Assembly (NCBI GenBank): GCA_002633275.1
Contig: NWBO01000076.1
Span: 1 to 40,898, forward strand
Reading direction: 5' to 3'
Origin: Bacteroidales bacterium Phil12
GTDB taxonomy: Bacteria > Bacteroidota > Bacteroidia > Bacteroidales > P3
DNA length: 40,898 bases
Below the pieces are notes generated by a model. The model did no database searches. It saw only the letters and a program-made list of their open reading frames with translations, and was not told where the DNA came from. Of this stretch, positions 1 to 40,865 are shown in pieces (positions within the stretch are counted from its first letter, which is position 1; every line of letters begins with the position of its first letter). Both the position numbers and the translations under genes were made by a program.

Positions 1-42
1 CACTAATTTTGTAATGTTAAACACTAATTTTGTAATAACACT
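1..42. repeat. 21-bp intergenic repeat array (two units, cut by window edge)
   Basis: Two consecutive 21-nt units share the core CACTAATTTTGTAAT, the first running into TGTTAAA before the second begins. The units match the TGTTTAACACTAAT-type repeat found at seven other intergenic places in this window. The array may extend to the left of the window. It lies downstream of the terminator of the TPR gene, so it is outside any recognisable transcription unit here. Confidence 0.7.
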
Positions 43-121
43 TATAAATAATATATCATTTTATTAAATTCGACTCTCCTATATATTCAATGTATATATT
101 TCCCATAATCAAAATAAATAA

Positions 122-149
122 CCGTCCGAAAAATAAAATCTTCGGACGG
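122..149 (-). terminator. Intrinsic terminator after the TPR gene
   Basis: Perfect 9-bp arms CCGTCCGAA and TTCGGACGG enclose a 10-nt loop. On the minus strand the stem lies about 60 nt beyond the stop of the TPR gene and is followed by T-rich sequence, so it probably ends the 3360-213 transcription unit. Confidence 0.75.
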
Positions 150-212
150 CTTGTTTATCTGATTATATAAAATCCTCAATTGTTGCAATACAAGAATTAT
201 GTGGCAAGTACA

Positions 213-500
213 TCACGGATTGTATAATGTTTTATCGTAAAAATTCAAAATATCAATACAGATGCGGCGCATAGTCGTAGCAGGATTTTTAGGGTTTATG
301 TCTATGGCAGTCGTGTAACTGTTTATGGCATCTTGCCATTGCTCTTGCTTTTTGTATATATTGCCTTTGAGATACCATGCCATATCATCGTCTTTATGCG
401 TTTGAAGAAAACTATCAACAAGTTCCATAGCCTTACCATAATCCTCCTGTTCCGTCAAAGACCTGACATCATTCAATATATATTCATTATTTGCTTCCAT
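213..500 (-). CDS. Small tetratricopeptide-repeat protein
   Basis: A 95-residue protein with one clear TPR unit: residues about 40-70 contain the AWYLKGNIYKKQEQWQDAINSY pattern in pieces (W-LG-Y..A...Y..A), followed by a PKNPA turn. A preceding helix pair (residues about 10-35) looks like a degenerate second TPR. There is no signal peptide, so it is probably a cytoplasmic protein-protein adaptor. The C-terminal end (ILNFYDKTLYNP) resembles the ends of short TPR proteins common in Bacteroidales, so the short length seems natural rather than truncated. It starts 40 nt after the stop of the type IX-secreted protein gene and may be co-transcribed with it. The partner is unknown. Confidence 0.75.
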   Translation of the reverse strand: MEANNEYILNDVRSLTEQEDYGKAMELVDSFLQTHKDDDMAWYLKGNIYKKQEQWQDAINSYTTAIDINPKNPATTMRRICIDILNFYDKTLYNP

Positions 501-540
501 TCCAATATTCTTTTTTTACTATTCAGCACTCAATTGCACA

Positions 541-3360
541 TTAATTATATATCATAAATGTACCCGCCTTTTGCATCAAACGATCAGGCGAATCCGAATG
601 ATGATATGTAGCATACCAAGTATAAACGCCTGACTGCACAACCTCTCCTTTATATGTACAATCCCAAGCCTGCGTTATGTCATCTGTTTCAAACACTAAC
701 GTTCCCCAACGATTAAAGATTTTCAAATTAAAGTCATAAATATTATCCACAACAACCTTGAACTGTCTGTTATCGTCTATATTTGAATGTATGTAAATAC
801 CTGTCGGAGCCCAAATATGATGTTCGCGAACAACGGATATAGGCGTCGTTATCGAATCAACACAACCATATCCCGTTATACCTGTCAAAGTTACATAATA
901 AGTAAGTACGGTATCTTCCACTTCAAAAGTGTGTCTGAAATTCTTATCCGTTGAAGTAGCGCCATCGCTTATCGTCCAAATCCTATCCACAATGCCCGTC
1001 GTTTTATCATTGAACACAACAACAGGAGTCAGTTCGTCTATATAATCAGGTGTCATTGTCATAACAGGTATAGGTTTCTTTTCAACATATACCGTCATTG
1101 AAGCCGAGGATTCGCAATGCAATTCCGGATTGCTATATGCCGTTACCGTGTATTTCGTTGTTGCCTCAGGAGAAACGGTGTATTCTGGCAAATTTCCTTG
1201 ATTGACTGACGCGTCGTTTGAAGACCAAATATATCCTTCTGCTTCACCGATAACACCGACTTTTGCCATTTCCTGCTCACATATCTTTGCATCTTCATAA
1301 CACTCTACGACAGGTATAGGATATACATTGACAGTAGCCGATTTGGTCGTTGCACAAGCAGCGACGTCAGTCGTTACCGTTACGACATATTCTGTTGTTT
1401 GGTCTGGTTTAACCTCAATGGTCTTTGTAGTCTCGGCTGTTCCCCAAGTATATGAGGTTTCTCCTGCATCATGCTCCGCAGTTAGTTTTGTAGAATTGCC
1501 ATTACAAATATCTTTCGTTCCCGTTATATCAACCACAGGGTATTTTACAACAGTTATCTGCGATTCGTCCGTTGCACTACAATTTCTGTTGTCCGTAAGT
1601 TTCAAAGTAAGCGTTCCTGTTGTTGCAGGCTTAAAATCTGCCGTCATCGAAGAACTTACCGGATTGCCGCCAAAAGTCCACAGATATGTATTGGTCTCTA
1701 CTAATTCGTTCAAAGCCTCAGTATATATAACATTCTTACCATCACAAACTGCGGTATCCTCGCCTATACTTACATTTACTTTTCTATTGACTATCCAACA
1801 AGAGTCATATCTCTGACAAAGGGTGTCATTAGTGTTACCGTTCTTAAAGTTGATTACATGAAATTTGTAAAACACTTTTTCAACATCGGGGTCTTGCGGA
1901 ACGGTAGCAGTACCATTAAGGATTTGCTGTGCTGCAAGGCTCGTCGGCTCAACAAAATGATATTCATCGCCACCTGTAAATCTAAAAGTAACTCTATCTC
2001 CTGCACAAATGGTATCATACATCGAAAGAGAGTCCGCATTCATGGCAACCGTACCTGCATTATCGGCACTATTGTGTGAAATAGTCAAAGAAGGAACATT
2101 CAAAGGGTGAATCAAAATAGAGTCCCAAACATCAAACTCCAAGCCGTCCTCTTGACGAGTAACATTCATCTTGCAATAATACCAAGTATCGCCTTCGTCT
2201 TCACTCGGATTGGCAATAACCTGATTATTGCTGTTCGGCGTCAATTGCTGCATCTCATCTTTTTTTGCACCTTCGGTATTTTTCTTGTACCAAGTGTAAT
2301 AGTAAGATAATTCTCCGACAGGTTTTATACGCCACGCCTCATTGGTTGCTTCCCAAACGGTGTTATTGTAAGATTGAGTTTTTGGCGTACCTCCATTAGG
2401 TGCATATTGATTATTGGTAATGGCAAGCGATTCCGTTGCATCTATATTCTGAATACCCAAAATTGCGTTAGAGCCATTTGTTGAAGTTTTTGCAGGTTTT
2501 CTTTTCAAATAAAACTCTATAACGTTTGTTGTTTCATACAAAACAATCATAGAAGAAATATTGGACGTATCAGCATTGCCATAATTACCGAAAGAAGGTA
2601 TATCATAAAAGGTAAGAATACACATACGACAAGGATATTCACCTGAGAACTTGATATACATCCCTTGATTCCCGGATGCATTACCATAATGAATATCAAA
2701 CCAAGGCCCGTTTATGGAATTAAACGTAGGATTCTTATAACTTCCCCACATATCTCTATTATCTGGTAATGGTTGTGAAGTACTATAAGGACAATACAAA
2801 TAACTTCCCGCAGAAGGAGGAGCATAAAGATTAATACCTTGCTGTTGTGCATACGCAAGCATGGGACTACTGCTGTTAAACATATGAAGACCGCCATTGG
2901 AATTAGGCATTACCGTGGAGTAAGACTCATCGTAAAAGAAAAATTTGAAGCCCGGTGTATCCGAATCCGGATTAGGCGGAAAATAGTAATCAAAGTTAAA
3001 TAGCGCTCCCCAACAGTCATCAACAGGTAAATTCAACTTTTCTCCTAAATTGTTATTTGTAGGATTGAATGCAATAGGTGGATCGTATGCTATTTTCTCG
3101 TAAGTATAATATCCATTGTCAGGGTCGGGATAACCCGGTGCAAAACCTATGGGCAAAAGTATTCTCGATGCAGTATCGCAAGTAAGCGTTATACCATCTG
3201 TACGCTGCGCAGCCGAAAATACTACGGTATCTTCTCCAATTAATTCTTGAATTTCAATATTGGCACAACCCTGAGCCGCATTCTGTGCAAATACATTTGT
3301 GGAAACGCAACAAAATATTGCCAACGACAAAACGACAAATAAATTCTTCAAGTTATACAT
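541..3360 (-). CDS. Type IX-secreted PKD/Ig-like surface protein with gliding-motility-type C-terminal domain
   Basis: A 939-residue secreted protein. It has a signal peptide (residues 1-25, hydrophobic stretch then NVFAQ). Residues about 200-350 form a large extracellular region, and several Ig/PKD-like modules with WTFGG or W-S-type turns run from about 350 to 840. The last roughly 90 residues (IWAPTGIY ... FNRWGTLVFET ... W.C.YKGE...GVYTWYATY) match the gliding-motility-associated C-terminal domain used as a type B sorting signal by the type IX secretion system. The protein is therefore predicted to cross the outer membrane through that system and be attached or released at the surface. 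Similar proteins are adhesins or matrix components; the ligand cannot be read from the sequence. Expression may be controlled by a palindrome in its promoter. Confidence 0.85.
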   Translation of the reverse strand: MYNLKNLFVVLSLAIFCCVSTNVFAQNAAQGCANIEIQELIGEDTVVFSAAQRTDGITLTCDTASRILLPIGFAPGYPDPDNGYYTYEKIAYDPPIAFNPTNNNLGEKLNLPVDDCWGALFNFDYYFPPNPDSDTPGFKFFFYDESYSTVMPNSNGGLHMFNSSSPMLAYAQQQGINLYAPPSAGSYLYCPYSTSQPLPDNRDMWGSYKNPTFNSINGPWFDIHYGNASGNQGMYIKFSGEYPCRMCILTFYDIPSFGNYGNADTSNISSMIVLYETTNVIEFYLKRKPAKTSTNGSNAILGIQNIDATESLAITNNQYAPNGGTPKTQSYNNTVWEATNEAWRIKPVGELSYYYTWYKKNTEGAKKDEMQQLTPNSNNQVIANPSEDEGDTWYYCKMNVTRQEDGLEFDVWDSILIHPLNVPSLTISHNSADNAGTVAMNADSLSMYDTICAGDRVTFRFTGGDEYHFVEPTSLAAQQILNGTATVPQDPDVEKVFYKFHVINFKNGNTNDTLCQRYDSCWIVNRKVNVSIGEDTAVCDGKNVIYTEALNELVETNTYLWTFGGNPVSSSMTADFKPATTGTLTLKLTDNRNCSATDESQITVVKYPVVDITGTKDICNGNSTKLTAEHDAGETSYTWGTAETTKTIEVKPDQTTEYVVTVTTDVAACATTKSATVNVYPIPVVECYEDAKICEQEMAKVGVIGEAEGYIWSSNDASVNQGNLPEYTVSPEATTKYTVTAYSNPELHCESSASMTVYVEKKPIPVMTMTPDYIDELTPVVVFNDKTTGIVDRIWTISDGATSTDKNFRHTFEVEDTVLTYYVTLTGITGYGCVDSITTPISVVREHHIWAPTGIYIHSNIDDNRQFKVVVDNIYDFNLKIFNRWGTLVFETDDITQAWDCTYKGEVVQSGVYTWYATYHHSDSPDRLMQKAGTFMIYN

Positions 3361-3403
3361 ACTAATGATGTGTGTTTATCTTAATAACTAAATTCCTATT
3401 ACT

Positions 3404-3436
3404 CAAATGATAAAAATATCATGTATTTTTATCAAA
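3404..3436 (-). promoter_or_regulatory. Promoter-like site with a palindromic operator in its spacer
   Basis: Reading the minus strand, TTTG (3433-3436) is followed after 20 nt by TATCATTTG (3404-3412). This resembles the Bacteroidetes TTTG/TAnnTTTG promoter with one extra base in the -7 element. A perfect inverted repeat, GATAAAAATA / TATTTTTATC with a 5-nt centre (3409-3433), fills the spacer. That position would let a bound dimer block or remodel the promoter. The start codon of the type IX-secreted protein gene is about 45 nt downstream. Confidence 0.5.
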
Positions 3437-3461
3437 ATAGTGTCCCCAATTATTTTCCCAA

Positions 3462-3503
3462 TGTTTAACACCAATAAATTAATGTTTAACATTAAAAATG
3501 CAA
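3462..3503. repeat. 21-bp intergenic repeat array (two units)
   Basis: Two units of 21 nt, starting TGTTTAACACC and TGTTTAACATT. The junction forms the near-perfect palindrome TTAATGTTTAACATTAA (3479-3495; 8-bp arms around one base). The array sits about 25 nt upstream of the minus-strand promoter of the type IX-secreted protein gene and about 175 nt before the rpmG promoter. Confidence 0.75.
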
Positions 3504-3734: not shown

Positions 3735-3923
3735 ATGGCAAAGAAACAGAAAGACGTTAGAGTACAGGTTATATTGGAATGTACAGAGCAGAAAAATTCG
3801 GGAGTTGCTGGAATTTCACGTTATGTTACAACAAAATCAAAAAAGAATACTCCTGAAAGATTGGAATTAAAGAAATACAACCCTTATTTGAAAAAAGTAA
3901 CGGTTCATAAGGAAATTAAATAA
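3735..3923 (+). CDS. rpmG: 50S ribosomal protein L33
   Basis: A 62-residue protein with the bL33 pattern: MAKK start, [32 protein letters not shown] in pieces, and a VTVHKEIK tail. Only one cysteine (in LECTE) is present, so this is the zinc-free (C-minus) form. It is a structural component of the large ribosomal subunit near the tRNA exit site. In Bacteroidetes rpmG is usually preceded by rpmB (L28). Here no L28 gene is seen upstream and rpmG has its own promoter, so L28 must be encoded elsewhere. The DUF4295 gene follows 15 nt later. Confidence 0.95.
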
Positions 3924-4188: not shown

Positions 4189-5163
4189 ATGGGAATTTTT
4201 TCATTTCTAAAAAAAAGCGATAAACAAACCTTGAATCAGGGTTTGCAGAAAACGAAAGAGAGTGTTTTTAGTAAAATTTCCAAAGCACTAATCGGAAAAT
4301 CCACTATTGACGATGATGTTTTGGATAATTTAGAGGAAATTCTCATTGGTGCTGACGTCGGCGTGGATACCACTCTGAAAATAATAGACAGAATACAGCA
4401 AAGAGTGGCGAAAGACAAATACATTTCAACAAATGAATTGAACACCTTGCTTAAAGAAGAGATTTCATCTTTGATGCAAGAAAACGTTATAGGTAACGAG
4501 CCTTTGGATTTTTCGTTCCCAAAGGGAGATGTACCGTACGTTATCTTGGTTGTTGGTGTTAATGGCGTTGGTAAAACGACAACAATCGGCAAATTGGCTT
4601 ATCAATTCAAACAGGCAGGCAAGAAAGTTGTTTTAGGTGCAGCAGATACTTTTCGTGCGGCAGCTATCGACCAATTAAACATTTGGGCTCAAAGAACAGA
4701 TACTGAAATAATCGCTCAACAAATGGGTTCAGATCCTGCAAGCGTTGCTTACGACACATTAAAGAGTGCATTGAGCAAAAAAGCCGATGTTGTGATCATA
4801 GATACGGCAGGACGATTGCACAACAAAATCGGTCTTATGAACGAACTGAGCAAGATAAAAAAAGTTATGCAGAAATTAGTCCCTACCGCTCCCAATGAAG
4901 TGTTATTGGTCTTAGATGCTTCAACGGGACAGAATGCTATTGAGCAAGCAAAACAATTTACTCAGGCAACGGAGGTTTCGGCATTGGCTTTGACGAAATT
5001 GGACGGCACAGCAAAAGGTGGTGTGGTTATCGGAATAAGCGATATGTTCAAAATTCCGGTCAGGTATATCGGTCTTGGCGAACAGATGCAAGATTTACAG
5101 ATTTTCAACAGAGAGGCTTTTGTTGAGACTTTGTTTGAAAACACAAGTATTGCAGAAAAATAA
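4189..5163 (+). CDS. ftsY: Signal recognition particle receptor FtsY
   Basis: A 324-residue SRP GTPase that docks ribosome-nascent chain-SRP complexes at the inner membrane for co-translational insertion. The helical N domain covers residues 1-100. The G domain shows the P-loop GVNGVGKT (123-130), the DTFRAAA motif that follows, DTAGR (about 205) and TKLD (about 268), and ends with GLGEQMQDL. The long acidic A domain of enteric FtsY is absent, as usual in Bacteroidetes; the amphipathic start MGIFSFLKK probably supplies membrane contact. It is the last gene of the rpmG operon. No stem-loop terminator is seen; a 21-bp repeat array begins 23 nt after the stop. Confidence 0.97.
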   Translation: MGIFSFLKKSDKQTLNQGLQKTKESVFSKISKALIGKSTIDDDVLDNLEEILIGADVGVDTTLKIIDRIQQRVAKDKYISTNELNTLLKEEISSLMQENVIGNEPLDFSFPKGDVPYVILVVGVNGVGKTTTIGKLAYQFKQAGKKVVLGAADTFRAAAIDQLNIWAQRTDTEIIAQQMGSDPASVAYDTLKSALSKKADVVIIDTAGRLHNKIGLMNELSKIKKVMQKLVPTAPNEVLLVLDASTGQNAIEQAKQFTQATEVSALALTKLDGTAKGGVVIGISDMFKIPVRYIGLGEQMQDLQIFNREAFVETLFENTSIAEK

Positions 5164-5186
5164 TTTTGCAATAAAGCAATTTACGG

Positions 5187-5291
5187 TGTTTAACACTAAT
5201 TTTTTAGTATGAGTAACTAATTTACCAATGTGAGACACTAAAAAAACAATGACACACTTCAAAAAAACACACATCAAACACAAGAAAACGG
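5187..5291. repeat. 21-bp intergenic repeat array (about five degenerate units)
   Basis: The clearest units begin at 5187 (TGTTTAACACTAATTTTTTA), 5210, 5229 (TGTGAGACACTAAAAAAAC), 5250 and 5271. The first two are 23 and 19 nt long (42 together) and the rest are 21. The last two are strongly diverged. The array fills most of the 240-nt gap between ftsY and the outer-membrane barrel gene, and no other promoter-like element was recognised there. Confidence 0.6.
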
Positions 5292-5403: not shown

Positions 5404-6156
5404 ATGAAAAAAATTTTAGTTGCAATAGCAGCAGTCGTTTGTGCCTTAAACTTGAATGCACAAAACCAACAAGGATGCAAAAATCAGCAAAATTGTCAAA
5501 ATGACAGCACCAAAACAAATTGTTGTATGACAAGTTCGCATCACTTTACTATGTCGTTGGGTTATGGTTTCTCACTAAGTGGCGACCACGATAATCTACT
5601 ACAAAACTACAATACTGTCGAAAACCACAATTCAAAGATGCGACACGGTATTGATTATCGTTTGGATTATGAATACAACTTCCACAAAAATTTCGCCGCA
5701 GGTGTCGTTTTCAACATGTATAACGCTTTCGATTCGTATTATGAGGGAGACAAGATGTTAGGTTCTTCTTCTGACGATCGTTGGATTTTCTTTGTCGGAC
5801 CGTCATTCATGGCTCATACCAATGTTATCAGCGAACGTTATGTGTTCTTTGCAAAAGCCACAGCGGGACTTATGAATTTCCGTAACGTTCAGCGTTGTTT
5901 GGTTAATTCAACAGATTTACTGGGTAATCCTTCTCAAAGTATGGTTGGCACGACTTACAAACGCTATACATTCGGTTATGGACTTAGTGCAGGAGCAAGT
6001 TACATTTTCAATAAATATTTGTCTTTGGATTGCTCGATAGGTTATATGGGCGGTAGCGTTAGCAAAGTTAAAGCCAATGATAAAACTTTTGAATTGGACG
6101 AAAACGAAGATTTATCAAGACTTAACATAAACGTTGGCATTAAAATCAAATTGTAA
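5404..6156 (+). CDS. Outer-membrane beta-barrel protein with cysteine-rich N-terminus
   Basis: A 250-residue protein. A signal peptide (residues 1-19, ending NLNAQ) is followed by a short Gln/Asn/Cys-rich linker with four cysteines (about residues 24-42, spaced C-x5-C and ending CC). Alternating-residue strands then begin at HHFTMSLGYGFSLSG and end with LNINVGIKIKL, a C-terminal beta-signal-like strand. Length and strand pattern suggest a small barrel of about eight strands. Barrels of this type usually act as structural or small-molecule proteins; no substrate is evident. The cysteine-rich linker would face the periplasm and could bind metal or form disulfides (inference). The gene stands alone between two unusual non-coding elements. 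Confidence 0.7.
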   Translation: MKKILVAIAAVVCALNLNAQNQQGCKNQQNCQNDSTKTNCCMTSSHHFTMSLGYGFSLSGDHDNLLQNYNTVENHNSKMRHGIDYRLDYEYNFHKNFAAGVVFNMYNAFDSYYEGDKMLGSSSDDRWIFFVGPSFMAHTNVISERYVFFAKATAGLMNFRNVQRCLVNSTDLLGNPSQSMVGTTYKRYTFGYGLSAGASYIFNKYLSLDCSIGYMGGSVSKVKANDKTFELDENEDLSRLNINVGIKIKL

Positions 6157-6285: not shown

Positions 6286-7659
6286 TTGAAAAAAACAATC
6301 AAAATAAATTTTGTAAGTCTTGGCTGTTCAAAAAACACTGTGGATAGCGAAACACTTGCAGGCAGATTGTCAAAAGAAGGTTTTTCGGTAGAATTTAATA
6401 TGGAAAGACCTTCTTTTGATTTCGTTGTCATCAACACTTGCGGCTTTATCGACAAGGCAAAAGAAGAGAGCATCAACACCATTTTGGAATTTGTTCAGTT
6501 GCGAGAGGAGCTGATAAAGAAGAAAAAGAAAGGATTTAAGATAATAGTTTATGGATGCCTTGCTCAAAGATACCAAGACGAGTTGAAAAAATCCATAAAA
6601 GAAGTAGATTTTCTTACAGGTATAATGTCCGATGACAAGATATTTGATTTTATTTTGAAAAACTCTCCAAAGCCTACCTCAACTATCCAAAACAAAGACC
6701 TCTCAACAGAAACCACAAAACCTATAACCGAACAAATTTACAGGCGACAATTATCCACTGTCAAACATTATGCTTACCTAAAAATTTCGGAAGGTTGCGA
6801 TCGCCGTTGTGCTTTTTGCGCCATTCCGCTGATTAAAGGCAAACATATCTCCCGCCCTATCGAAGACATAGTTGCAGAAGCCCAAGCACTGATTAAACAA
6901 GGCGTGAAAGAACTTATACTTATCGCCCAAGACACATCATATTACGGATTGGATTTGTATAAAAAACGTATGCTGCCAGAACTTCTCAAAGAACTGATAA
7001 AAACAAATATTCATTGGATAAGACTTCAATACTCCTACCCTAACCAATTCCCTGTCGAGGTATTGGATTTGATGCAAAAGAGCAGTAAAATCTGCCATTA
7101 CCTGGATATGCCCCTTCAACATATCAATAATAGAGTTTTGGAGGCGATGAACAGAAATATCACCTCATCGGAAATCATTTCCTTGATTGATAAAATACGT
7201 TCAAAGGTTAAAGACATCGCTTTTCGTACAACACTTATCGTTGGTTTTCCAAGCGAAACGAAGGAGGAATTTAATGAATTGAGCGATTTTGTAAGCAAGA
7301 TTAAATTTGACAGAATGGGTGCTTTTACTTATTCTAAGGAAGAGGGTACTAAGGCCGGCGAGATGAAAGACAGCGTTACTCCAAAGGAAAAACAAAGACG
7401 TTTGGACGTTTTAACGGATATTCAACAGGAAATATCTTTTACTCTTAACCAACAAAAAATAGGTAAGACTTTTGAGACCATTATCGATAGAACCGAAGGC
7501 GAGTATTTTATCGGCAGAACACAATATGATTCGCCCGAAGTGGATAACGAAGTTTTGATTGCAATCAAAGACTTTCCCAACACAAAAATAGGAGAATTTT
7601 ACAATGTTCTTATTAATGACGCCACCGAATTTGATTTGTATGGTGAGGTCGTTGGGTAA
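6286..7659 (+). CDS. rimO: Ribosomal protein S12 methylthiotransferase RimO
   Basis: A 457-residue radical-SAM enzyme that adds a methylthio group to an aspartate of ribosomal protein S12. The N-terminal MTTase domain carries the auxiliary-cluster cysteines (SLGCSKN Cys14, NTCGF Cys52, YGCLAQR Cys91). The radical-SAM motif CDRRCAFC places Cys171, Cys175 and Cys178. A TRAM domain closes the protein (about 390-457, with the usual DLYGE ending), and NKVD-like S12-type features distinguish it from MiaB. The reading frame begins with TTG at 6286 preceded by ATAGG; there is no in-frame ATG near the conserved N-terminus. The nested inverted repeat directly upstream may influence its translation. Confidence 0.93.
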   Translation: MKKTIKINFVSLGCSKNTVDSETLAGRLSKEGFSVEFNMERPSFDFVVINTCGFIDKAKEESINTILEFVQLREELIKKKKKGFKIIVYGCLAQRYQDELKKSIKEVDFLTGIMSDDKIFDFILKNSPKPTSTIQNKDLSTETTKPITEQIYRRQLSTVKHYAYLKISEGCDRRCAFCAIPLIKGKHISRPIEDIVAEAQALIKQGVKELILIAQDTSYYGLDLYKKRMLPELLKELIKTNIHWIRLQYSYPNQFPVEVLDLMQKSSKICHYLDMPLQHINNRVLEAMNRNITSSEIISLIDKIRSKVKDIAFRTTLIVGFPSETKEEFNELSDFVSKIKFDRMGAFTYSKEEGTKAGEMKDSVTPKEKQRRLDVLTDIQQEISFTLNQQKIGKTFETIIDRTEGEYFIGRTQYDSPEVDNEVLIAIKDFPNTKIGEFYNVLINDATEFDLYGEVVG

Positions 7660-7750: not shown

Positions 7751-7774
7751 TATTAATAAAAAGCGTTTTACTTA

Positions 7775-7858
7775 TATTTAACACCAATAAAATAATGTTT
7801 AACACTAATCCACTAATGTTAAACATTAATTTTTTTATTTCACATATTATTTTTTGCT
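7775..7858. repeat. 21-bp intergenic repeat array with conserved end motif
   Basis: Three exact 21-nt units (7775-7795, 7796-7816, 7817-7837) begin TATTTAACACC, TGTTTAACACT and TGTTAAACATT. They are followed without a gap by TTTCACATATTATTTTTTGC (from 7838). The last unit plus this end motif matches the complement of 28853-28894 at 36 of 42 positions by eye, so the array has a defined boundary that is shared with a second locus. Confidence 0.8.
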
Positions 7859-8287: not shown

Positions 8288-10465
8288 ATGAACACTGTAC
8301 ATATTACGAAAAGAGATGGAAAACAAGAAGTATTTTCCATAGACAAAATAAAAAATGCAATAAGAAAAGCGTTCCTTGCAACAGGTGGCTATGCAACCGA
8401 AAGTGATTTAACGGAAATTCTTTCAAGAGTAAATATCAAGGACGGAATGACCGTTGAAGAAATTCAAAATCAAGTAGAGGTCGCTTTGATGGCTGAAAAG
8501 TATTATGCAGTAGCTAAATCCTATATGCTGTATCGTCAAAGACACCAAGAAGATCGTGAGACGACAAGCAAAGTAAAGTTCCTTTTGAATTATTGTGCTG
8601 CCGAAAATGCAGCGACAGGCTCAAAGTTCGATGCCAATGCTAACGTTGAATCAAAGAATATTGCAACCCTTATCGGGGAATTACCAAAACAAAACTTTAT
8701 TCGTTTAAATCGTCGTTTGCTTACCGACCGCTTGAAAGAGATGTATGGCAAGGATTTTTCCGATAGATACCTTTACTTGTTGGAAAATCACTTTATTTAT
8801 AAGAATGATGAAACATCTTTGGCTAATTATTGTGCCTCTATAACGATGTATCCTTGGCTGCTTAACGGAACAATGTCGATAGGTGGCAACAGTAAAGCCC
8901 CGACGAATTTGAAGAGTTTCTGCGGCGGTTTCATCAATATGGTGTTTATGGTTTCTTCTATGCTGTCCGGTGCTTGCGCCACTCCTGAATTTCTTATGTA
9001 TATGAACTATTTTATACAAAAGGAATACGGCGAGGATTATTATAATCACGCAAACGATGTGGTTGATTTATCTTCAAAGAAGCGTACTTTGGACAAGGTT
9101 ATCTGCGATTGTTTCGAGCAAATCGTTTATTCAATTAACCAACCGACGGGAGCAAGAAACTTCCAAGCCGTATTCTGGAATGTCGCGTACTACGACAAGC
9201 CTTATTTCGAGAGTTTGTTTGGCGAATTTGTATTTCCTGATGGTTCTAAGCCTCATTGGGAAAGTTTATGTTGGTTGCAGAAACGTTTTATGAAATGGTT
9301 CAACAAAGAACGAACACGTACCGTTCTTACATTCCCTGTTGAAACTATGGCTTTGTTAAGCGACGGAGATGATTTCAAAGACAAGGATATGGCGGACTTC
9401 ACTGCCGAGATGTATGCCGAAGGTCATTCGTTTTTCACATACGTTTCGGATAACGCAGACTCTCTTTCGTCTTGCTGTCGTTTGAGAAACGAAATCCAAG
9501 ACAACGGTTTCTCTTACACTTTGGGTGCAGGCGGTGTTTCAACTGGCTCAAAGAGTGTTTTGACAATAAACCTAAACCGTTGTATTCAATATGCCGTCAA
9601 ACAGAACATACCATACGTTCAATACGTTGAAGGTATCGTTGATTTGATGCACAAAGTTCAAACCGGCTACAACGAAAACCTAAAAATGCTTTACAATAAC
9701 GGAATGCTTCCTTTATTTACGGCAGGTTACATCAATTTATCTCGTCAATACCTTACAATAGGCGTTAATGGAATGGTTGAAGCCGCACAATTCCTTGGCA
9801 TAAAAATCAACGACAATCCTGAATACGAAAAATTCGTGGCAGATATATTGGGTACGGTTGAGAAACTAAACAAAAAGTATCGCACAAAAGAATTGATGTT
9901 CAACTGTGAAATGATTCCTGCCGAGAATGTAGGCGTAAAGCACGCTAAATGGGATAAAGAAGACGGCTACCAAACATTCCGCGATTGCTACAACTCATAT
10001 TTTTATATCGTAGAAGACGATTCTTTGAACGTATTTGATAAAATTCGTCTGCACGGCAAACGTTATATTGAGCATTTGACGGGCGGTAGTGCGTTGCACT
10101 TGAATTTGGAAGAGCATCTTTCACAGGCACAATACAGACAAATATTGAAAGTAGCTGCAAAAGAAGGTTGCAATTACTTTACATTCAACATTCCAAACAC
10201 AATATGTAATGATTGCGGACACATAGATAAACGTTACTTAAAGGAGTGTCCTGAGTGTGGCAGCAAGAATGTTGATTATTTGACGCGTATAATAGGTTAT
10301 ATGAAACGTGTAAGCAATTTCTCTGTTGCTCGTCAAAAAGAGGCAGCCGACCGTTATTATATAAATGTAAATAAAAACGAGAAACTTTTACAAGAGCCGT
10401 TGCCAACTCGTCATATAGAGTTTTCTAAGGAACAAGAAAAAGCCATTTCCGACACTTTGGCTTAA
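8288..10465 (+). CDS. nrdD: Anaerobic ribonucleoside-triphosphate reductase (class III)
   Basis: A 725-residue glycyl-radical enzyme that reduces ribonucleotides to deoxyribonucleotides without oxygen. The N-terminal ATP-cone (residues about 1-95, VHITKRDGKQEVFSIDKIKNAI in part) is the allosteric domain. The barrel follows, with the SSCCRLRNE segment. Near the C-terminus a zinc site CNDCG ... CPECG precedes the glycyl-radical loop RIIGYMKRVSNFS, in which Gly670 would carry the radical. The size is typical of Bacteroidetes NrdD. The activase gene nrdG starts 27 nt later, so the two form an operon. Its presence marks the organism as able to grow anaerobically. Confidence 0.96.
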   Translation: MNTVHITKRDGKQEVFSIDKIKNAIRKAFLATGGYATESDLTEILSRVNIKDGMTVEEIQNQVEVALMAEKYYAVAKSYMLYRQRHQEDRETTSKVKFLLNYCAAENAATGSKFDANANVESKNIATLIGELPKQNFIRLNRRLLTDRLKEMYGKDFSDRYLYLLENHFIYKNDETSLANYCASITMYPWLLNGTMSIGGNSKAPTNLKSFCGGFINMVFMVSSMLSGACATPEFLMYMNYFIQKEYGEDYYNHANDVVDLSSKKRTLDKVICDCFEQIVYSINQPTGARNFQAVFWNVAYYDKPYFESLFGEFVFPDGSKPHWESLCWLQKRFMKWFNKERTRTVLTFPVETMALLSDGDDFKDKDMADFTAEMYAEGHSFFTYVSDNADSLSSCCRLRNEIQDNGFSYTLGAGGVSTGSKSVLTINLNRCIQYAVKQNIPYVQYVEGIVDLMHKVQTGYNENLKMLYNNGMLPLFTAGYINLSRQYLTIGVNGMVEAAQFLGIKINDNPEYEKFVADILGTVEKLNKKYRTKELMFNCEMIPAENVGVKHAKWDKEDGYQTFRDCYNSYFYIVEDDSLNVFDKIRLHGKRYIEHLTGGSALHLNLEEHLSQAQYRQILKVAAKEGCNYFTFNIPNTICNDCGHIDKRYLKECPECGSKNVDYLTRIIGYMKRVSNFSVARQKEAADRYYINVNKNEKLLQEPLPTRHIEFSKEQEKAISDTLA

Positions 10466-20789: not shown

Positions 20790-20874
20790 TGTTTAACATT
20801 TACGCAAAAAATAATCTCTCACATCAGTAAATTAATCTCTCATATTATTTTATTAATCACTCACACTATTTTTA
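20790..20874. repeat. 21-bp intergenic repeat array (four units, second variant)
   Basis: A diverged TGTTTAACATT unit (20790-20811) is followed by three exact 21-nt units at 20812, 20833 and 20854. These begin TAATCTCTCACATCAGTAAA, TAATCTCTCATATTATTTTA and TAATCACTCACACTATTTTT. This variant keeps TAAT...ACAC/TTA but swaps the palindromic 5' half for CTCTC or CACTC. It fills the gap between the DUF5686 promoter region and a terminator; nothing else gene-like is seen in 20639-21015. Confidence 0.75.
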
Positions 20875-24189: not shown

Positions 24190-24278
24190 CGTTGCTTGAA
24201 AACTATAATTCTAATTGTTTTTTATTATTTATTTTCCTCTTTCCGATATCACTATTTCAATCAAACAAACCAATTTAT

Positions 24279-24341
24279 TAATCACTCACATCAGTAAATT
24301 AATATTAATGATTAATAAATTAGTATTTAACACTAATAAAT
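24279..24341. repeat. 21-bp intergenic repeat array (three exact units)
   Basis: Units at 24279, 24300 and 24321 are exactly 21 nt: TAATCACTCACATCAGTAAA, TAATATTAATGATTAATAAA and TAGTATTTAACACTAATAAA, each followed by T. It combines the CACTC variant and the TTTAACACTAA variant in one array, which shows they belong to one family. It lies between DUF3098 and uppP, which are otherwise expected to be in one operon. Confidence 0.8.
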
Positions 24342-28179: not shown

Positions 28180-28854
28180 ATGAAAAAATACGTTATAATT
28201 TTGGCTTGCGGTTTAGGTGCAAGAATGCAATGTCCGACACCGAAACAATACATAGAACTTAACGGTAAGCCGATAGTTTTTCATACCATTGAAAGGATTT
28301 GGAATTTTGACCATACATATAATATTATAGTTGTTATCAATAAAGAGCATACCGATTTATTCAATCATCTGAAAAATCGGTATGCTTTAAGTGTTCCTTT
28401 CTCGTTGGTATTCGGCGGAAGAGAGAGATTTTATTCTGTCAAAAATGCGTTGGACACCATAACCGATGAGCATTCTTTGGTCGCCATTCATGACGGCGTT
28501 CGCCCTGTTGTAGAGAAACAAATGTTTGAGCAAGGTTTCTGTGTTGCGGCAACTCTCGGCAATGCAATATGTGCCATAAAAGCCACAGACAGCATACGTT
28601 TAGGAAACGAACATACAAATGAAAGCATAGACAGAAGCAAAGTGTTTTTGGTACAGACACCGCAAATTTTCAAAACATCTGTAATCAAAAAAGCTTACTC
28701 ACAACCATTTCAACCGACATTTACCGACGATGCCTCCGTTGCTCAAAACATCGGCGAGAATATAAATATCATTGAGGGAAGCAAGACCAATATAAAAATA
28801 ACATATACTCCTGATTTGGCAATCGCACAACATTTTTTGAACAATACACAATAG
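28180..28854 (+). CDS. ispD: 2-C-methyl-D-erythritol 4-phosphate cytidylyltransferase
   Basis: A 224-residue cytidylyltransferase of the MEP isoprenoid pathway, making CDP-methylerythritol from CTP and MEP. The nucleotide motif ILACGLGARMQCPTPKQY (residues 7-24) has Cys10 where many homologues have Ala or Gly. HDGVRPVV and TDDASVAQNIGENINIIEGSKTNIKIT follow. It is 21 nt after queA and likely co-transcribed. It supplies isoprenoids that end up in undecaprenyl phosphate (UppP) and the menaquinone side chain (MenA). Confidence 0.93.
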   Translation: MKKYVIILACGLGARMQCPTPKQYIELNGKPIVFHTIERIWNFDHTYNIIVVINKEHTDLFNHLKNRYALSVPFSLVFGGRERFYSVKNALDTITDEHSLVAIHDGVRPVVEKQMFEQGFCVAATLGNAICAIKATDSIRLGNEHTNESIDRSKVFLVQTPQIFKTSVIKKAYSQPFQPTFTDDASVAQNIGENINIIEGSKTNIKITYTPDLAIAQHFLNNTQ

Positions 28855-28945
28855 CAAAAAATAATATGGGAAACTATAAAATTAGTATTTAACACTAATA
28901 AATTAATGTTTAACATTAGTAAATTAGTATTAAACATCAGTAAAT
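28853..28945. repeat. 21-bp intergenic repeat array with conserved end motif
   Basis: Three exact units (28883-28903, 28904-28924, 28925-28945) begin TAGTATTTAACACTAATAAA, TAATGTTTAACATTAGTAAA and TAGTATTAAACATCAGTAAA. On the left, the complement of 28853-28873 reads TTTCCCATATTATTTTTTGC, matching the end of the 7775-7858 array at 20 of 21 positions by eye. It overlaps the last codon of ispD by 2 nt and leaves about 65 nt of plain AT-rich sequence before the kinase/RapZ gene. Confidence 0.85.
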
Positions 28946-29012: not shown

Positions 29013-30404
29013 ATGGAAAAAGAAATTATCGATTTGTTTGAAAAGACTTTTAACGAGAGTATTGAAAGCATTGAAAAAGTATCTGCGTCGGGCAGCAACA
29101 GAAAATATTTTCGTCTGATTTCAAAAAATCATCGGTGCATCGGTGCATACAACGAGGACTGCAAAGAAAACAAGGCTTTTATTTCATACGCAAAACAACT
29201 TAAAGCCAATGGTATCAACGTTCCCGACATCTACGCTGAGGATTTGAGCCGTAACGTTTATTTGCAGCAGGATTTGGGAAACGAAACCTTGTTCGATTTC
29301 CTCAAAACCCACAGCCTTGAACAGACAATGCCTTATTATATCAAGGTTATGGAACAAATAGCAAAAATTCAGACCATAAAAAACTTCGATTACTCACACG
29401 CTTATCCCGCAAAGACTTTTGACAAACAAAGTATGATGTGGGATTGCAATTATTTCAAATATTATTTTCTTAAATTCTTTGACATACAATTCGATGAGCG
29501 TCTTTTAGAGGAGGATTTCAATCGTCTGACGGATTATTTGCTATCTTGTGAAAACGATTATTTTATTTATCGTGATTTTATTCCGAGAAACATTATGATT
29601 TGCGATAATGAGTTGTATTTCATCGATTTTCAAGGCGGTAGAAAAGGTAGCCTGTATTATGATTTAGCTTCCTTTCTCTTCAATTCCAAAACGGATTTGG
29701 ACAACATCACAAGAGAAAAACTCTTTAATATATACCTTGATAACGTTTCCCAATACACGAACATTGATAAGGCTGAAAGCAGGAATTATTTGTTTGCTTA
29801 CGTTTATCTTCGCCTTATTCAGAATATGGGAGCGTATGGTTTTCGTGGTGTTTTCGAGAAAAAAAAGGATTTTATTAAGAGTATCCCTTTTGCGTTGAAG
29901 AATTTGGATTTTCTTGTGGGCAATGTTGATTTGGATATTGATATCGAGCATTTGAAGAATTGTTTTTACCAAATCCTTAACAGCAAAAAAATCCAAGATA
30001 CCATAAATCAAAACAAACTGACGATAACCGTGCAAAGTTTTTCTTACAAAAAAGGTTATCCTTGCGATATTTCGGGCAATGGCGGTGGTTTTGTGTTCGA
30101 TTGCAGAGCCTTACCCAATCCGGGAAGAGAGCAGAGATTTAAGCAAATGACGGGGTTGGACAAACAAGTCAAGCAATATTTGGAAGCATATCCGCAAACG
30201 AAAGCTTTCTTTGACAATGCGATGAATTTAATCAATATGAGCATTGAAAATTATTTGGAAAGAAATTTTTCGCATCTAAGCGTCAGTTTCGGTTGTACCG
30301 GCGGACAGCACCGAAGTGTTTATTTTGCTCAAAAGTGTGCCGACACATTATCGCAAAATCCTGATTTGAATGTTATTATACATCATATAGAACAAAATAT
30401 TTAA
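29013..30404 (+). CDS. Aminoglycoside-phosphotransferase-type kinase fused to a RapZ C-terminal-like domain
   Basis: A 463-residue two-domain protein. Residues 1 to about 320 are a phosphotransferase-fold kinase with YRDFIPRN (Asp188, Asn193) and IDFQ (Asp205) as the catalytic and metal motifs, most like sugar kinases of the AmgK type. Residues about 330-463 match the C-terminal domain of RapZ: SFSYKKGYP, CRALPNPGRE, TGLDK and SFGCTGGQHRS (about 425-435). In gamma-proteobacteria RapZ controls amino-sugar synthesis by sensing a metabolite and binding a small RNA. Here the RapZ ATPase half is replaced by a kinase, suggesting linkage of amino-sugar phosphorylation to sensing (inference). No MurU-like gene follows. 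Confidence 0.85.
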   Translation: MEKEIIDLFEKTFNESIESIEKVSASGSNRKYFRLISKNHRCIGAYNEDCKENKAFISYAKQLKANGINVPDIYAEDLSRNVYLQQDLGNETLFDFLKTHSLEQTMPYYIKVMEQIAKIQTIKNFDYSHAYPAKTFDKQSMMWDCNYFKYYFLKFFDIQFDERLLEEDFNRLTDYLLSCENDYFIYRDFIPRNIMICDNELYFIDFQGGRKGSLYYDLASFLFNSKTDLDNITREKLFNIYLDNVSQYTNIDKAESRNYLFAYVYLRLIQNMGAYGFRGVFEKKKDFIKSIPFALKNLDFLVGNVDLDIDIEHLKNCFYQILNSKKIQDTINQNKLTITVQSFSYKKGYPCDISGNGGGFVFDCRALPNPGREQRFKQMTGLDKQVKQYLEAYPQTKAFFDNAMNLINMSIENYLERNFSHLSVSFGCTGGQHRSVYFAQKCADTLSQNPDLNVIIHHIEQNI

Positions 30405-30454: not shown

Positions 30455-30554
30455 AAAATCAAAAATTCGAGTCTGCCTAACAATATCAGACAAGAGAGAA
30501 ATAGTATTAAACAACAAGGAAATAAAGTTAAACAACAAAAAAATAATCATAGCG

Positions 30555-31202
30555 ATGAAAAAACCAGTTAAAATAACTCTGTTATTAGTCGGCGTATTGG
30601 CTGTACTTGCTTTGGCAGTGGCTTTGTTCAACAGTATCATGACTCCTGTAAAATTTCAAGAAGAGTACAACGCACGTTCAACCGAAGTTATCAATAAACT
30701 AAAAGATATTCGTACTTTGCAAGAGCAGTACAAGAACACTAACAACGCTTATTGCAACAATATCGATTCTTTGATTGATTTTGCATTCAACGGCAGCGCT
30801 TTACTTGTTCAAAAATTCGGTACTGTTCCCGACAATATGACTGAGGCTGAGGCTTTGAAACAAGGTATATTGAAAAGAGATACAACTAAGGTTAATCCTC
30901 TTGAAAAACTATCGGCAGAAGGCAAATTATTGACTCCGAAAGACAAAATAAAAGATTTGAAATTTATCCCTTATTCTGACGGAAAAATATTTGAGATGCA
31001 AGCCGGTACTTTAAGCAAGGGCGGTATAGACGTTGCAGTCTTTGAAGCAAAAGCCCCTATTGAATCTTACACCAAAGGTATGGACGAGCAGACTGTTACC
31101 AACCGCAAAGCAGAACTTGAAAAGATGAATAACGGTGCGGGTTATGCCGGCTGGAAAGTAGGTTCTATGGACGAGGCTGTTACTGACGGTAACTTCGAAT
31201 AA
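30555..31202 (+). CDS. Membrane-anchored pilin-like protein of unknown function
   Basis: About 215 residues from the ATG at 30555; a longer frame from 30423 is excluded by the promoter inside it. A single N-terminal membrane helix (about 6-28, ITLLLVGVLAVLALAVALF) leads to KLKDIRTLQEQYKNTNNAYCNNIDSLIDF, which resembles the early helix and first turn of type IV pilin-like proteins. The closing GWKVGSMDEAVTDGNFE is a conserved-looking tail. It probably lies in the periplasm. DUF3822 and rsmD follow in the same direction. The function is not known. Confidence 0.65.
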   Translation: MKKPVKITLLLVGVLAVLALAVALFNSIMTPVKFQEEYNARSTEVINKLKDIRTLQEQYKNTNNAYCNNIDSLIDFAFNGSALLVQKFGTVPDNMTEAEALKQGILKRDTTKVNPLEKLSAEGKLLTPKDKIKDLKFIPYSDGKIFEMQAGTLSKGGIDVAVFEAKAPIESYTKGMDEQTVTNRKAELEKMNNGAGYAGWKVGSMDEAVTDGNFE

Positions 31203-39666: not shown

Positions 39667-39675
39667 ATCGAGTTG

Positions 39676-40668
39676 TTATAATGTGGTTATTTCCAATATT
39701 TCCATCATAGGCGTAGGCTCTATCAATACATCTTTGGCTATGGCAGGAATCATAATTATCTCTCCTGCTTTCAAAGGTATTCGCTCTTTCATACAGTTGA
39801 TAAATCCGCCGCCAGCAACACAGAAATACAAATAAAACGTATCCGAATTTTCCAAATTCTTTCTTAATCCGGTTGTCAAAGGTATAAGATTGGTAACAAA
39901 ATACGGACTTTCCACCATATTGGTTGTTTCATTCAAATGATAATGGTAATGACATTTTGCCGTTCCTTCTTGTGCGGACAAATCCATAACCTTTAAGCCT
40001 TGCTCCAAGTGTAGTTCCCGGGCTTCGCCCTTTTCATTCTTTCTGTTCCAATCATATATACGAAAAGTGGCATCGGACGATTGCTGAATTTCTGCAAGCA
40101 AAACACCCTTACCTATCGCATGCACCGTTCCTGCCGGTATGTAATACAAATCGCCTTGCTTTGCCTCATCTACGTGAAGTACGGATTCTATGGTATTATT
40201 TCTTGTTCTGTTGATTATATCTGCTTTGGTTTCCTTCTGATTAAACCCGCAATAGATTTTTGCTCCTTCATCGGCTTGCAAAACATACCACATCTCGGTT
40301 TTACCATTCTGCATATCATTAGCCCAAGCATATTCGTCATCGGGATGTACCTGCACCGAAAGATTATCGGCAGCATCTATGATTTTTATCAGCAACGGAA
40401 AATCCTCACCGAATTTGTCGAAATTGTCCTCTCCCACCAATTCATCGGCATACATCTCCAACACTTCTTTCAATGTACATTCTGCCAGAAAACCATTCTC
40501 CACAACCGTTTCCTGCCCTTCCACAGCACTCAACACCCACAACTCGCCCAAACGCTCCAACGGTGAATAATCGACACCAATCAAATCTCTTACCTTGTTA
40601 CCGCCCCAAATCTTATCTTTGAACAAGGGCATAAATTTTAACGGATATAATGTTTTTTCTTCTTCCAT
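39676..40668 (-). CDS. manA: Mannose-6-phosphate isomerase, class I
   Basis: A 330-residue zinc-dependent isomerase that interconverts fructose 6-phosphate and mannose 6-phosphate, feeding glycan synthesis. VQVHPDDEYAW and KTEMWYVL contribute zinc ligands (residues about 100-135), and GTVHAIGKGVLLAEIQQSSDATFRIYDWNR forms the active-site end. A C-terminal cupin-like strand set (PLKAGEIIMIPAI) closes the fold. It leads the manA-mutS pair and has its own -7 element. Confidence 0.93.
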   Translation of the reverse strand: MEEEKTLYPLKFMPLFKDKIWGGNKVRDLIGVDYSPLERLGELWVLSAVEGQETVVENGFLAECTLKEVLEMYADELVGEDNFDKFGEDFPLLIKIIDAADNLSVQVHPDDEYAWANDMQNGKTEMWYVLQADEGAKIYCGFNQKETKADIINRTRNNTIESVLHVDEAKQGDLYYIPAGTVHAIGKGVLLAEIQQSSDATFRIYDWNRKNEKGEARELHLEQGLKVMDLSAQEGTAKCHYHYHLNETTNMVESPYFVTNLIPLTTGLRKNLENSDTFYLYFCVAGGGFINCMKERIPLKAGEIIMIPAIAKDVLIEPTPMMEILEITTL

Positions 40669-40723
40669 TCTTATGTATTTTTTATTTATCCATCACTTCA
40701 AAATAACTATCAAAAAACATTTT

Positions 40724-40732
40724 GCAAATTTA
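40724..40732 (-). promoter_or_regulatory. manA-mutS promoter (-7 element)
   Basis: On the minus strand TAAATTTGC matches the -7 consensus. No good TTTG is found 19-21 nt upstream; the nearest is about 33 nt away. The leader is about 45 nt. Confidence 0.6.
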
Positions 40733-40802
40733 CGAATATTCTCATTTATCTAAAAATATTTTTTTCAAAACCCTGTTTTTAATTCTCTTAACGAGGTAAA
40801 AT

Positions 40803-40865
40803 TTTTCTCTCACACTATTTCACTAATCACTCACACTAATAAAATGAATATAAACGCTAAAAAAA
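40803..40865. repeat. 21-bp intergenic repeat array (three units)
   Basis: Units of 21 nt start at 40803 (TTTTCTCTCACACTATTTCA), 40824 (TAATCACTCACACTAATAAA) and 40845 (TGAATATAAACGCTAAAAAA). The first two are the CACTC variant; the third is diverged. The array lies about 70 nt upstream of the manA -7 element and close to the window end. Confidence 0.7.

Follow-up and report, generated by a model that had tools for sequence, protein, structure and literature searches.

The window, a stretch of 40,898 nt of the rumen bacterium Bacteroidales bacterium Phil12, carries short arrays of near-palindromic units that recur at a 21-bp period. Sequence reading and profile scoring find the units at all eight loci first noted there, and six of these have two or three sites, each scoring 8 bits or more, at a spacing of exactly 21 bp; of the other two, the locus at 1-42 begins with a unit truncated by the contig end, followed by a single strong site (17.7 bits, centre 19), and the locus at 40803-40865 has two sites 21 bp apart that score 7.7 and 15.9 bits. 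The boundaries first proposed were slightly generous: at 20790, by reading, the first GTTTAACA does not keep the phase of the array, and units fade past 5242 and past 7830.

Taken from the left, the contig-start array (1-49) comprises a unit tail at 1-7, a strong unit at 8-28 and a weak unit at 29-49, and lies beyond the 3' end of a minus-strand gene (213-500). A two-unit array at 3455-3496 (centres 3466 and 3487) sits between divergent genes at 541-3360 (minus strand) and 3735-3923 (plus strand), and the three-unit array at 5180-5242 (centres 5191, 5212 and 5233), from which degenerate units run on to about 5291, lies between an SRP54-type GTPase gene (4189-5163) and a gene at 5404-6156. Three units at 7768-7830 (centres 7779, 7800 and 7821) separate the gene at 6286-7659, which we take to be rimO, from an NRDD gene (8288-10465). 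The three units at 20808-20870 have CTCTCAC, CTCTCAT and CACTCAC cores (centres 20819, 20840 and 20861) and lie between two minus-strand genes (18035-20623 and 21016-21417), and those at 24275-24337, of mixed core types (centres 24286, 24307 and 24328), lie upstream of a minus-strand BacA-family gene (23332-24189). A further three-unit array (28879-28941; centres 28890, 28911 and 28932) stands between the IspD gene (28180-28854) and a gene at 29013-30404. We also find a ninth, degenerate array at 30498-30539 (9.1 and 6.5 bits, 21 bp apart), which is likewise a 21-bp row in TRF and lies just upstream of the gene at 30555-31202. The last array, two units at 40799-40840 with CTCTCAC and CACTCAC cores (centres 40810 and 40831), lies beyond the start of a minus-strand gene (39676-40668) and 58 bp from the contig end.

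Abundance, phase and placement across the genome

The arrays belong to a genome-wide family, as the first-pass annotation had proposed: 193 arrays of a 17-19 bp dyad (TTARTGTTWAACAYTAA) occur in 1.18 Mb of the 2.96-Mb genome, or 16 per 100 kb, when sites up to 70 bp apart are merged and arrays closer than that are counted once. By extrapolation, the total would be about 485 arrays per genome. They comprise two to eight diverged palindromic units, most often three, and 218 of 250 close unit pairs are locked at 21 bp, a distance equal to two helical turns of DNA. At a threshold of 8 bits, 448 sites were found in 780,898 bp, compared with 42 in a second-order Markov resample of C158 and C53 (740,000 bp) and 89 with the profile read backwards (780,898 bp); at 16 bits, the counts were 225, 1 and 0, respectively. 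Among weak pairs, in which both units score at least 2 bits, 485 lie at a lag of 21 and 0-10 at each of the seven other lags tried between 15 and 25. The profile was gathered from both strands, which partly favours its symmetry, and since it had been iterated on C76, C158 and C53, we recounted with a frozen profile on two replicate contigs (C151 and C149; 397,226 bp), where 222 sites formed 63 arrays and 111 of 122 close pairs stood at 21 bp. A two-unit pattern allowing up to three mismatches matched 13 times in the whole genome and never in a backwards control; match counts from some scans, which scored up to 150 candidates per genome, are to be read as at least the values given. A chance origin of the units is excluded, and on the genome contigs scanned their frequency is not that expected from AT content, their presence is not equal inside genes and their spacing is not free.

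Enrichment between genes was likewise borne out, with 155 of the 193 arrays intergenic, though 36 lie within genes called by a home-made hexamer caller. Arrays occupy 65 of 250 co-directional, 18 of 65 divergent and 19 of 60 convergent intergenic regions, with no bias towards any class, and stand closer to gene ends than to gene starts (medians of 64 and 130 bp in co-directional regions). They are also spaced apart. Across all 193 arrays, two neighbour pairs lie within 1 kb, against 19.5 expected (none of 3,000 draws was as low), and for intergenic arrays alone the count is two against 7.6 expected (pooled P 0.012). In-gene arrays are found where intergenic arrays are distant: for 19 of them the closest intergenic array is a median of 5,798 bp away, where 2,079 bp would be expected (P 0.0002), a remoteness that is borderline in the replicate contigs alone (n = 5, P 0.051). 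Placement is not strictly regular, with gaps of 45, 35 and 30 kb, two of which fall where the genes have orthologs elsewhere in the genus, and the coefficient of variation of intergenic array spacing does not differ from the null on C158 or C53 (P 0.18 and 0.89); the assembly consists of 174 unordered contigs. The over-dispersed placement, the in-gene arrays and the species-specific unit sequences described below lay beyond the view of the first-pass annotation.

Unit structure and change between species

Within the unit, specific positions (T8 and A16, G9/C15, and Y17) are kept, and the two strongest positions vary least (2 of 190). When eight dyad pairs were compared across 395 units, strong Watson-Crick covariation was confined to the innermost pair (z 7.6), the rest ranging from z -3.3 to +2.6. 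The absence of covariation at most dyad pairs indicates that the two half-sites are largely free to vary separately, which fits a dimer site and is in keeping with the dimer-like dyads first proposed, and it argues against a hairpin. The CACTC or CTCTC form, initially set apart as a second form, instead counts among several half-site variants found in the same arrays as the commonest form. Units are barely more alike within arrays (0.64) than between them (0.595), junctions are AT-rich, and the signal in outer units is weak (5.6 bits across 21 columns in 246 units), without defined ends in this genome (G000). Copying of some arrays has taken place, with one 88-bp stretch present twice at 98.9% identity in unlike flanks, and this would also fit a mobile element.

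A sister species at 95% identity allows the units to be followed as they change. Array bases change at about the rate of other intergenic bases, and 17% of changes damage the motif, compared with 52% expected; 120 substitutions in 39 indel-free arrays alter the score by a mean of +0.14 against -2.83 expected (standard deviation of the mean 0.27), and in the reverse direction of the comparison by -0.59 against -2.98. Within aligned blocks, 40 of 40 and 40 of 41 arrays are common to both species, the single unshared array being a 21-bp difference, with no empty site among the 40 and 41 arrays. With G000 as the reference, four arrays carry indels, and in three of them the difference from the sister is 20 or 21 bp; together with the strict 21-bp lock, this upholds the initial suggestion that spacing matters. 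By this pattern of substitution, selection is shown to keep the motif rather than the exact sequence between sister species.

Beyond the sister species, intergenic arrays of 21- or 22-bp period occur in eight of the nine other genus members sampled (a set without G002, G009 and G011), at 4 to 33 per 100 kb, and order-level outgroups gave one array in 114 kb. Unit sequences differ among genus members, other species use a 22-bp period or G+C-containing cores, and in some relatives the units are not clearly palindromic: the best self-correlation of the unit consensus is 0.38 to 0.57 for the 21-bp units of G012, G013, G007 and G016, and 0.73 to 0.92 for those of G001 and L247 and for the 22-bp sets. 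Core strings derived from G001 are no clean marker (per 100 kb, 3.3, 0 and 0 in G000 against 9.4, 1.1 and 0 in G001). Sharing of array positions with other members of the genus is weak (odds ratio 2.3, P 0.014; 17 of 82 gene ends against 38 of 372). The comparison is confounded by intergenic length, uses alignments not extended at the 3' end and drops any ortholog that lies no more than 450 bp from the edge of a locus. By eye, G013 has five 22-bp CATATG arrays that appear to be near-identical copies, and inverted flanks surround arrays in G008, G006 and G013; in one ortholog pair, G001 is without most of the array-coded stretch. Arrays of like design written in other letters point to an unrecognised, possibly fast-changing DNA-binding system.

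Candidate binders and competing explanations

ParB/parS systems have palindromic chromosomal sites, with the consensus TGTTNCACGTGNAACA, that are bound by a spreading dimer, and Noc is a ParB paralog. The arrays resemble these systems in offering palindromic chromosomal sites, here for a predicted dimer, and differ in that G000 has one ParB_N match (E <= 1e-5) and a separate parS-like site in an orthologous gene. No match to TGTTNCACGTGNAACA with up to one mismatch occurs in G000, and hence no array unit matches it; the parS-like site lies in the same gene in G000, G005, G007 and G004, so that G000 and its sister share it with two other genus members. G005 also has one ParB_N match, and the ParB HTH region looks conserved by eye. 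We therefore reject ParB and Noc as binders, and the partition-type site among the users first proposed is not supported; a simple curved-DNA element fares no better, and a nucleoid-type protein stands as a likely user. Noc of Bacillus subtilis is described as having about 70 sites that are largely missing from the terminus (PMC4331003). Noc and SlmA of E. coli resemble the present case in their palindromic, chromosome-scattered sites, higher-order protein complexes and chromosome-scale role, as presented in these sources (PMC4331003; PMC4117426; PMC7468209), and the arrays, known here from their sequence, are likewise palindromic sites dispersed outside local regulatory logic. Unlike the roughly 70 Noc sites, they number about 16 per 100 kb, are phased and species-specific in sequence, and have a binder that is predicted.

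A rather unlikely explanation, in our estimation, is that the arrays are small non-autonomous mobile elements, each about 100 bp long with three to five of the 21-bp units; a transposase or recombinase that binds the units would have spread them, and their spacing would arise from target immunity and insertion preference. The duplicated 88-bp stretch, the arrays inside genes, the G001 ortholog without most of its array-coded stretch and the five CATATG arrays of G013 would all suit such elements, as would the over-dispersion, which is also compatible with target immunity. There is precedent in the order: the BrickBuilt MITE of Porphyromonas gingivalis ATCC 33277 is reported in 19 copies with one tandemly repeated 23-nt sequence and a leader and tail carrying IS5-like terminal inverted repeats, 4 of the 19 having both intact, and tandem direct repeats of 22, 23 and 41 nt are also reported in that species (PMC4596501). 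These repeats, as reported, share with ours a Bacteroidales host, intergenic location, tandem units of similar length and species specificity (PMC4596501), but here there would be hundreds of arrays (extrapolated), with diverged palindromic units in place of the near-identical tandem units of a MITE, weakly conserved outer units and selection at the level of the motif, and a BrickBuilt-type MITE fits them poorly. The near-complete sharing of arrays between sisters speaks against recent movement there, substitution that keeps the motif yet runs at about the full intergenic rate would be unexpected of dead copies, and units are hardly more alike within an array than between arrays. Of the two transposase families scanned, Y1 transposase is absent from ten genomes with arrays (G016 and nine from the genus). 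DDE_Tnp_1 matches five times in G000 and once each in G005 and G007 but is absent from the array-bearing G001, G012, G013 and G016, and was rejected as a general driver. A viral source was also rejected: IMG/VR viral contigs held no exact match to the two-unit pattern, a weak negative because the pattern matched only 27 of 277 array loci.

The arrays could also be operators of an ordinary global transcription regulator that controls neighbouring genes, and their palindromic, operator-like units, intergenic position and retention between sister species agree with this; we nonetheless regard it as improbable, since convergent regions, which have no gene start, hold arrays no less often than divergent regions do, gene ends are closer to arrays than gene starts are, and over-dispersion and the remoteness of in-gene arrays are left without a reason. 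Structured-RNA or DNA-hairpin repeats (REP/BIME type, terminators or attenuators) seem very improbable. REPs are described as more than 100 extragenic palindromes per genome, species-specific and with a suggested role in chromosome organisation (PMC2817692), and near-palindromic units in more than 100 copies and a covarying innermost pair recall them, but most of the dyad is without covariation, which rules against a hairpin model, and divergent regions, which have no gene 3' end, are occupied as often as convergent ones. A REP-RAYT system was rejected on the same absence of covariation and on the lack of a Y1 transposase gene (no PF01797 match in either G000 or G005, E <= 0.001), the symmetric unit leaves the alternating orientation of BIMEs undefinable, and Rfam covariance models at the gathering threshold match two tRNAs in the window and nothing at the arrays. 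Equally slight are the chances of intrinsically curved or flexible phased AT-rich DNA without a specific protein: a period of two helical turns and AT-rich junctions would suit it, but specific positions are kept, the strongest two changing least, and in other species the period is 22 bp or the cores contain G+C.

The explanation that we favour, at about even chances, is that the arrays are cooperative binding platforms for a predicted homodimeric, sequence-specific, chromosome-wide DNA-binding protein with a specificity that shifts from species to species. Two half-sites make up the dyad of each unit, and the arrays are spaced apart independently of gene direction; each unit would bind one dimer, and adjacent dimers would lie on one helix face and bind cooperatively. 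The roughly 485 arrays may then act chromosome-wide, for example in nucleoid anchoring, looping or segregation, as Noc and SlmA sites do, and switching of neighbouring genes would not be their role. Arrays of the same period on other unit sequences in relatives suggest that either the protein itself or its specificity changes from one species to another, with the arrays following. We more tentatively propose a genus-level chromosome-marking system of phase-locked arrays, in which the recognised sequence is replaced and the period kept through putative co-evolution of binder and site under conflict or drive, like centromere turnover in eukaryotes; such arrays could serve as a centromere distributed over the chromosome, a scaffold for the nucleoid or a mark of self against non-self. 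Among the open-licence papers searched, screened mostly by title and abstract opening and with subscription journals mostly absent, none describes this array family. If our reading is correct, a group of rumen bacteria would organise or mark its chromosome with hundreds of phased arrays whose code changes while the spacing persists, representing an unrecognised chromosome-wide DNA-binding system and a bacterial case of rapid binder-site co-evolution. Searches by sequence motif would miss such systems, as their common signal would be the 21- or 22-bp period and not the letters.

Unit profile, phase and half-sites

A unit profile grown from the window's units across 780,898 bp of the genome (contigs C76, C158 and C53), with sites taken from both strands, is nearly symmetric, AAA-TTA(R)TG-TT-W-AA-CA(Y)TAA-T, with its dyad at position 12 and T8 and A16 almost invariant; counting palindromic sites on both strands contributes to this symmetry, and, read on one strand, the window's 20 units give the consensus AAATTAATnTTTAACACTAAT. 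In its 19-column symmetrised form the profile has an information content of 17.3 bits. With a threshold of 8 bits, we find 448 sites in this sample, against 42 in a Markov resample built from C158 and C53 (740,000 bp) and 89 with the profile run backwards; at 16 bits or more, the corresponding figures are 225, 1 and 0. The first-pass annotation had proposed a 21-bp phase, and this is borne out: among 250 pairs of neighbours no more than 130 bp apart, the separation is exactly 21 bp in 218 and exactly 42 bp in 25, and weak sites pair up 485 times at lag 21 against 0 to 10 times at each of seven other lags tested. With the profile frozen, two unseen contigs (C151 and C149, 397,226 bp) yielded 222 sites in 63 arrays, and 21 bp separates the members of 111 of 122 pairs. 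The commonest span is exactly three units (87/130 arrays in the first sample, 36/63 in the replicate); outer units flanking the arrays are far weaker yet above background (5.6 bits, 246 units), and those one step further out score 2.2 bits.

Watson-Crick covariation across the dyad (395 units) is strong at the innermost pair only (z 7.6; −3.3 to +2.6 at the remaining seven), and the two halves of the unit vary largely independently of each other. Half-site variants include AACACTAA, AACATCAG, GTGATTAA, GACACTAA and CACACTAA; the "second form" of the unit described earlier is no distinct form and is one such variant, found in the same arrays as the first. Since units are scarcely more alike within an array (0.64 adjacent, 0.65 non-adjacent) than between arrays (0.595), the arrays are not fresh minisatellites.

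A profile scan of the window confirmed as real all eight intergenic loci at which 21-bp units around a palindrome had been noted, and added a ninth, degenerate array at 30498-30539. The window is the entire contig C76 of a 2.96-Mb genome in 174 contigs; it starts within an array (1-49), another (40799-40840) ends 58 bp before its end, and the arrays may have caused the assembly to break there. The large protein encoded at 541-3360 (minus strand) contains a PKD domain as well as a CHU_C type IX secretion signal.

Placement along the chromosome

The intergenic preference also suspected at first reading holds for the first three contigs, where 103 of 130 arrays are intergenic and coding calls cover 87 to 90% of the DNA. 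Among intergenic regions of at least 60 bp, 102 hold an assigned array, one each, and region class matters little (co-directional 65/250, divergent 18/65, convergent 19/60). Five contigs hold 193 arrays (155 intergenic, 36 in called genes, 2 unassigned), a density of 16 per 100 kb, and extrapolation from them suggests about 485 in the whole genome.

Arrays keep apart from one another. Against a null in which intergenic regions were redrawn by length and genes by size, the 193 arrays form 2 neighbour pairs closer than 1 kb where 19.5 are expected (0 of 3,000 draws so low); intergenic arrays alone give 2 against 7.6 (P 0.012), and their avoidance has faded at 3 kb (35 pairs, 42.3 expected; P 0.065). 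The spread of intergenic-array spacings showed nothing unusual on C158 or C53, each taken alone. For the 19 arrays situated well within genes longer than 500 bp, the median distance to the closest intergenic array is 5,798 bp, where 2,079 bp would be expected (P 0.0002). The first sample gave 5,772 against 2,103 bp (n = 14), and the replicate contigs, ahead of which the prediction was fixed, gave a borderline result in the same direction (6,760 against 2,454 bp, n = 5, P 0.051). When 16 array-bearing genes were translated, many arrays proved to be read in frame as heptads (KLVLNIS is an example), frequently within stretches that resemble linkers; in one ortholog pair, most of the array-coded stretch is missing from the protein of G001, another member of the genus. 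Placement does not follow a ruler strictly: there are gaps of 45 kb (with two weak 21-bp pairs), 35 kb (three) and 30 kb (none). The first of these (C53 312,862-358,242) has no strong array, and several of its genes have orthologs in G001 and G012.

Retention in the sister species and replacement across the genus

The closest relative is G005 (isolate RUG093; RimO 96% identical, aligned DNA 95.4% identical); a rumen origin of our genome is likely, as several relatives are named as rumen MAGs. Over 306,750 aligned bp, all 40 arrays have a G005 counterpart and 40 of 41 do in reverse, the sole exception being a 21-bp difference. Indels, seen from our genome, occur in four arrays (21, 20, 21 and 3-4 bp). 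The 39 indel-free arrays carry 120 substitutions (5.2%); a separate count put divergence at 6.0% for units and 5.7% for the intergenic DNA beyond arrays. The mean effect of substitutions on motif score is +0.14, against −2.83 expected if neutral (sd of mean 0.27; maximum in 5,000 neutral simulations −1.87), and −0.59 against −2.98 in the reverse direction. Damaging substitutions (worse than −3 bits) make up 17% against 52% expected (reverse, 22% against 53%), and of the 190 cells in columns 8 and 16, 2 changed. Substitutions thus spare the motif score: letters drift inside the motif's limits and recognition does not. Conversion between arrays could contribute to this retention; two arrays share 98.9% identity along 88 bp in unlike flanks, so copying or conversion does occur. 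The in-gene array at C158 66289-66372 and its G005 counterpart (locus L098) differ by one in unit number, and some units are replaced, in a protein about 94% identical between the two species, which suggests inter-array conversion there.

The unit profile matches at least 123 times in our genome, at least 122 in G005 and at least once in G001, with no match among the candidates scored in 38 other genomes. A letter-independent search for self-similarity at lag 21 or 22 uncovers arrays with different letters in other genus members: G001 (27 arrays, 23 intergenic, in 180 kb), G013 (17, 16; 100 kb), G012 (14, 10; 96 kb), G007 (12, 10; 60 kb), G004 (10, 9; 124 kb), G010 (5, 5; 120 kb), G006 (3, 3; 15 kb) and G008 (5, 4; 15 kb), with intergenic enrichment at P ≤0.0012 in all eight, and G003 (3, 2; 32 kb; P 0.055). 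Other genera of the family gave G016 (7, 5; 40 kb; P 0.0001), G015 (3, 2; 40 kb) and G024 (3, 1; 20 kb), neither significant, and 2 arrays, both intergenic, jointly in 80 kb of G014, G018, G021 and G023. L247 (RUG11829) has 4, 2 intergenic, in 18 kb (not significant). Other lags between 15 and 30 average 0 to 0.93 arrays per lag in these samples, and six stretches of order-level outgroups (114 kb) hold one array. Around 80 NrdD loci (1.40 Mb), lag 21 is commonest (27, against 0 at lag 20, 1 at lag 24 and 12 at lag 18), coding repeats included.

Consensus units are AAAWTAATMnGSCnKWTTART in G001, which shares our genome's outer frame around a different core, one with CTTTGTTTTA in G007, AAWTATTTCTTYRTTYTATT in G012 and AAAAAMATAKGTTTTTT (22 bp) in G013. 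Palindromy ranges from 0.73 to 0.92 in the 22-bp sets and, among 21-bp units, in those of G001 and L247; the 21-bp units of G012, G013, G007 and G016 reach 0.38 to 0.57, and the dyad is therefore not demonstrated in every species. Array positions are only weakly shared across the genus (17/82 array-bearing gene ends, against 38/372 others).

Five 22-bp CATATG arrays of G013 (L138 10284-10457; L139 1007-1162 and 9374-9519; L140 10022-10173 and 16485-16630) look by eye like near-identical, MITE-like copies, alike in the order of their units and in their TTCAGAAAA-like flanks; in its other arrays the core changes from array to array and an AAAA...TTTT frame is often kept. Arrays of different genera (G007, loci L127, L151 and L152; G016, L162; and L183) have a CTTTGTTTTA-type unit in common, and this unit may represent an earlier state of the motif. 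Three-unit, 22-bp palindromic arrays occur in Bacteroides sp. GM023 (L236 19911-19997) and Parabacteroides sp. 52 (L246 3144-3232), cultivable genera that offer possible experimental models.

Candidate mechanisms and known systems

A dyad of largely independent half-sites, strict phase, a kept motif and gene-neutral, over-dispersed placement are established. We propose that one protein dimer would occupy each unit, that dimers would bind cooperatively, side by side along one helical face, and that the arrays would serve a role at chromosome scale. Operators of a local regulator are not expected to be distributed in this way, as convergent regions carry arrays as often as divergent ones. Mobile elements would account for the copying of arrays and, via target immunity, for their over-dispersion, but not for the upkeep of the motif after fixation. 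A REP-RAYT system is rejected because Y1 transposases are missing from the ten array-bearing genomes searched; DDE_Tnp_1 is present in our genome, G005 and G007 and absent from four array-bearing genomes (G001, G012, G013 and G016). ParB is an unlikely binder, given a single ParB_N match in each of the two sister species, a similar HTH region and a separate parS-like site. That site, TGGCCCACGTGAAACA, lies in one same gene of both (C109:65010-65025; G005 C13:36638-36653), where G007 and G004 have TGGTCCACGTGAAACA; the genus's site sits within a conserved gene and departs from the canonical sequence, of which no copy with one mismatch or fewer was found in our genome, G001, G005 or G013.

The arrays would work like the sites of Noc (PMC4331003) and SlmA. 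In form they are like BrickBuilt, a MITE of P. gingivalis with 23-nt tandem units in 19 copies, and the further 22-, 23- and 41-nt tandem repeats reported in that species (PMC4596501); on the defining features examined, the arrays do not fully match either class. A full-text search of open-licence literature found no description of the array family, which we file among dispersed chromosomal binding-site systems. As a genome-wide feature the arrays are real, strong and surprising; they are probably selected protein-binding sites, and the chances that they act at chromosome scale appear evenly balanced. What may turn out to be new in kind is the swapping of the unit species by species with the period held constant.
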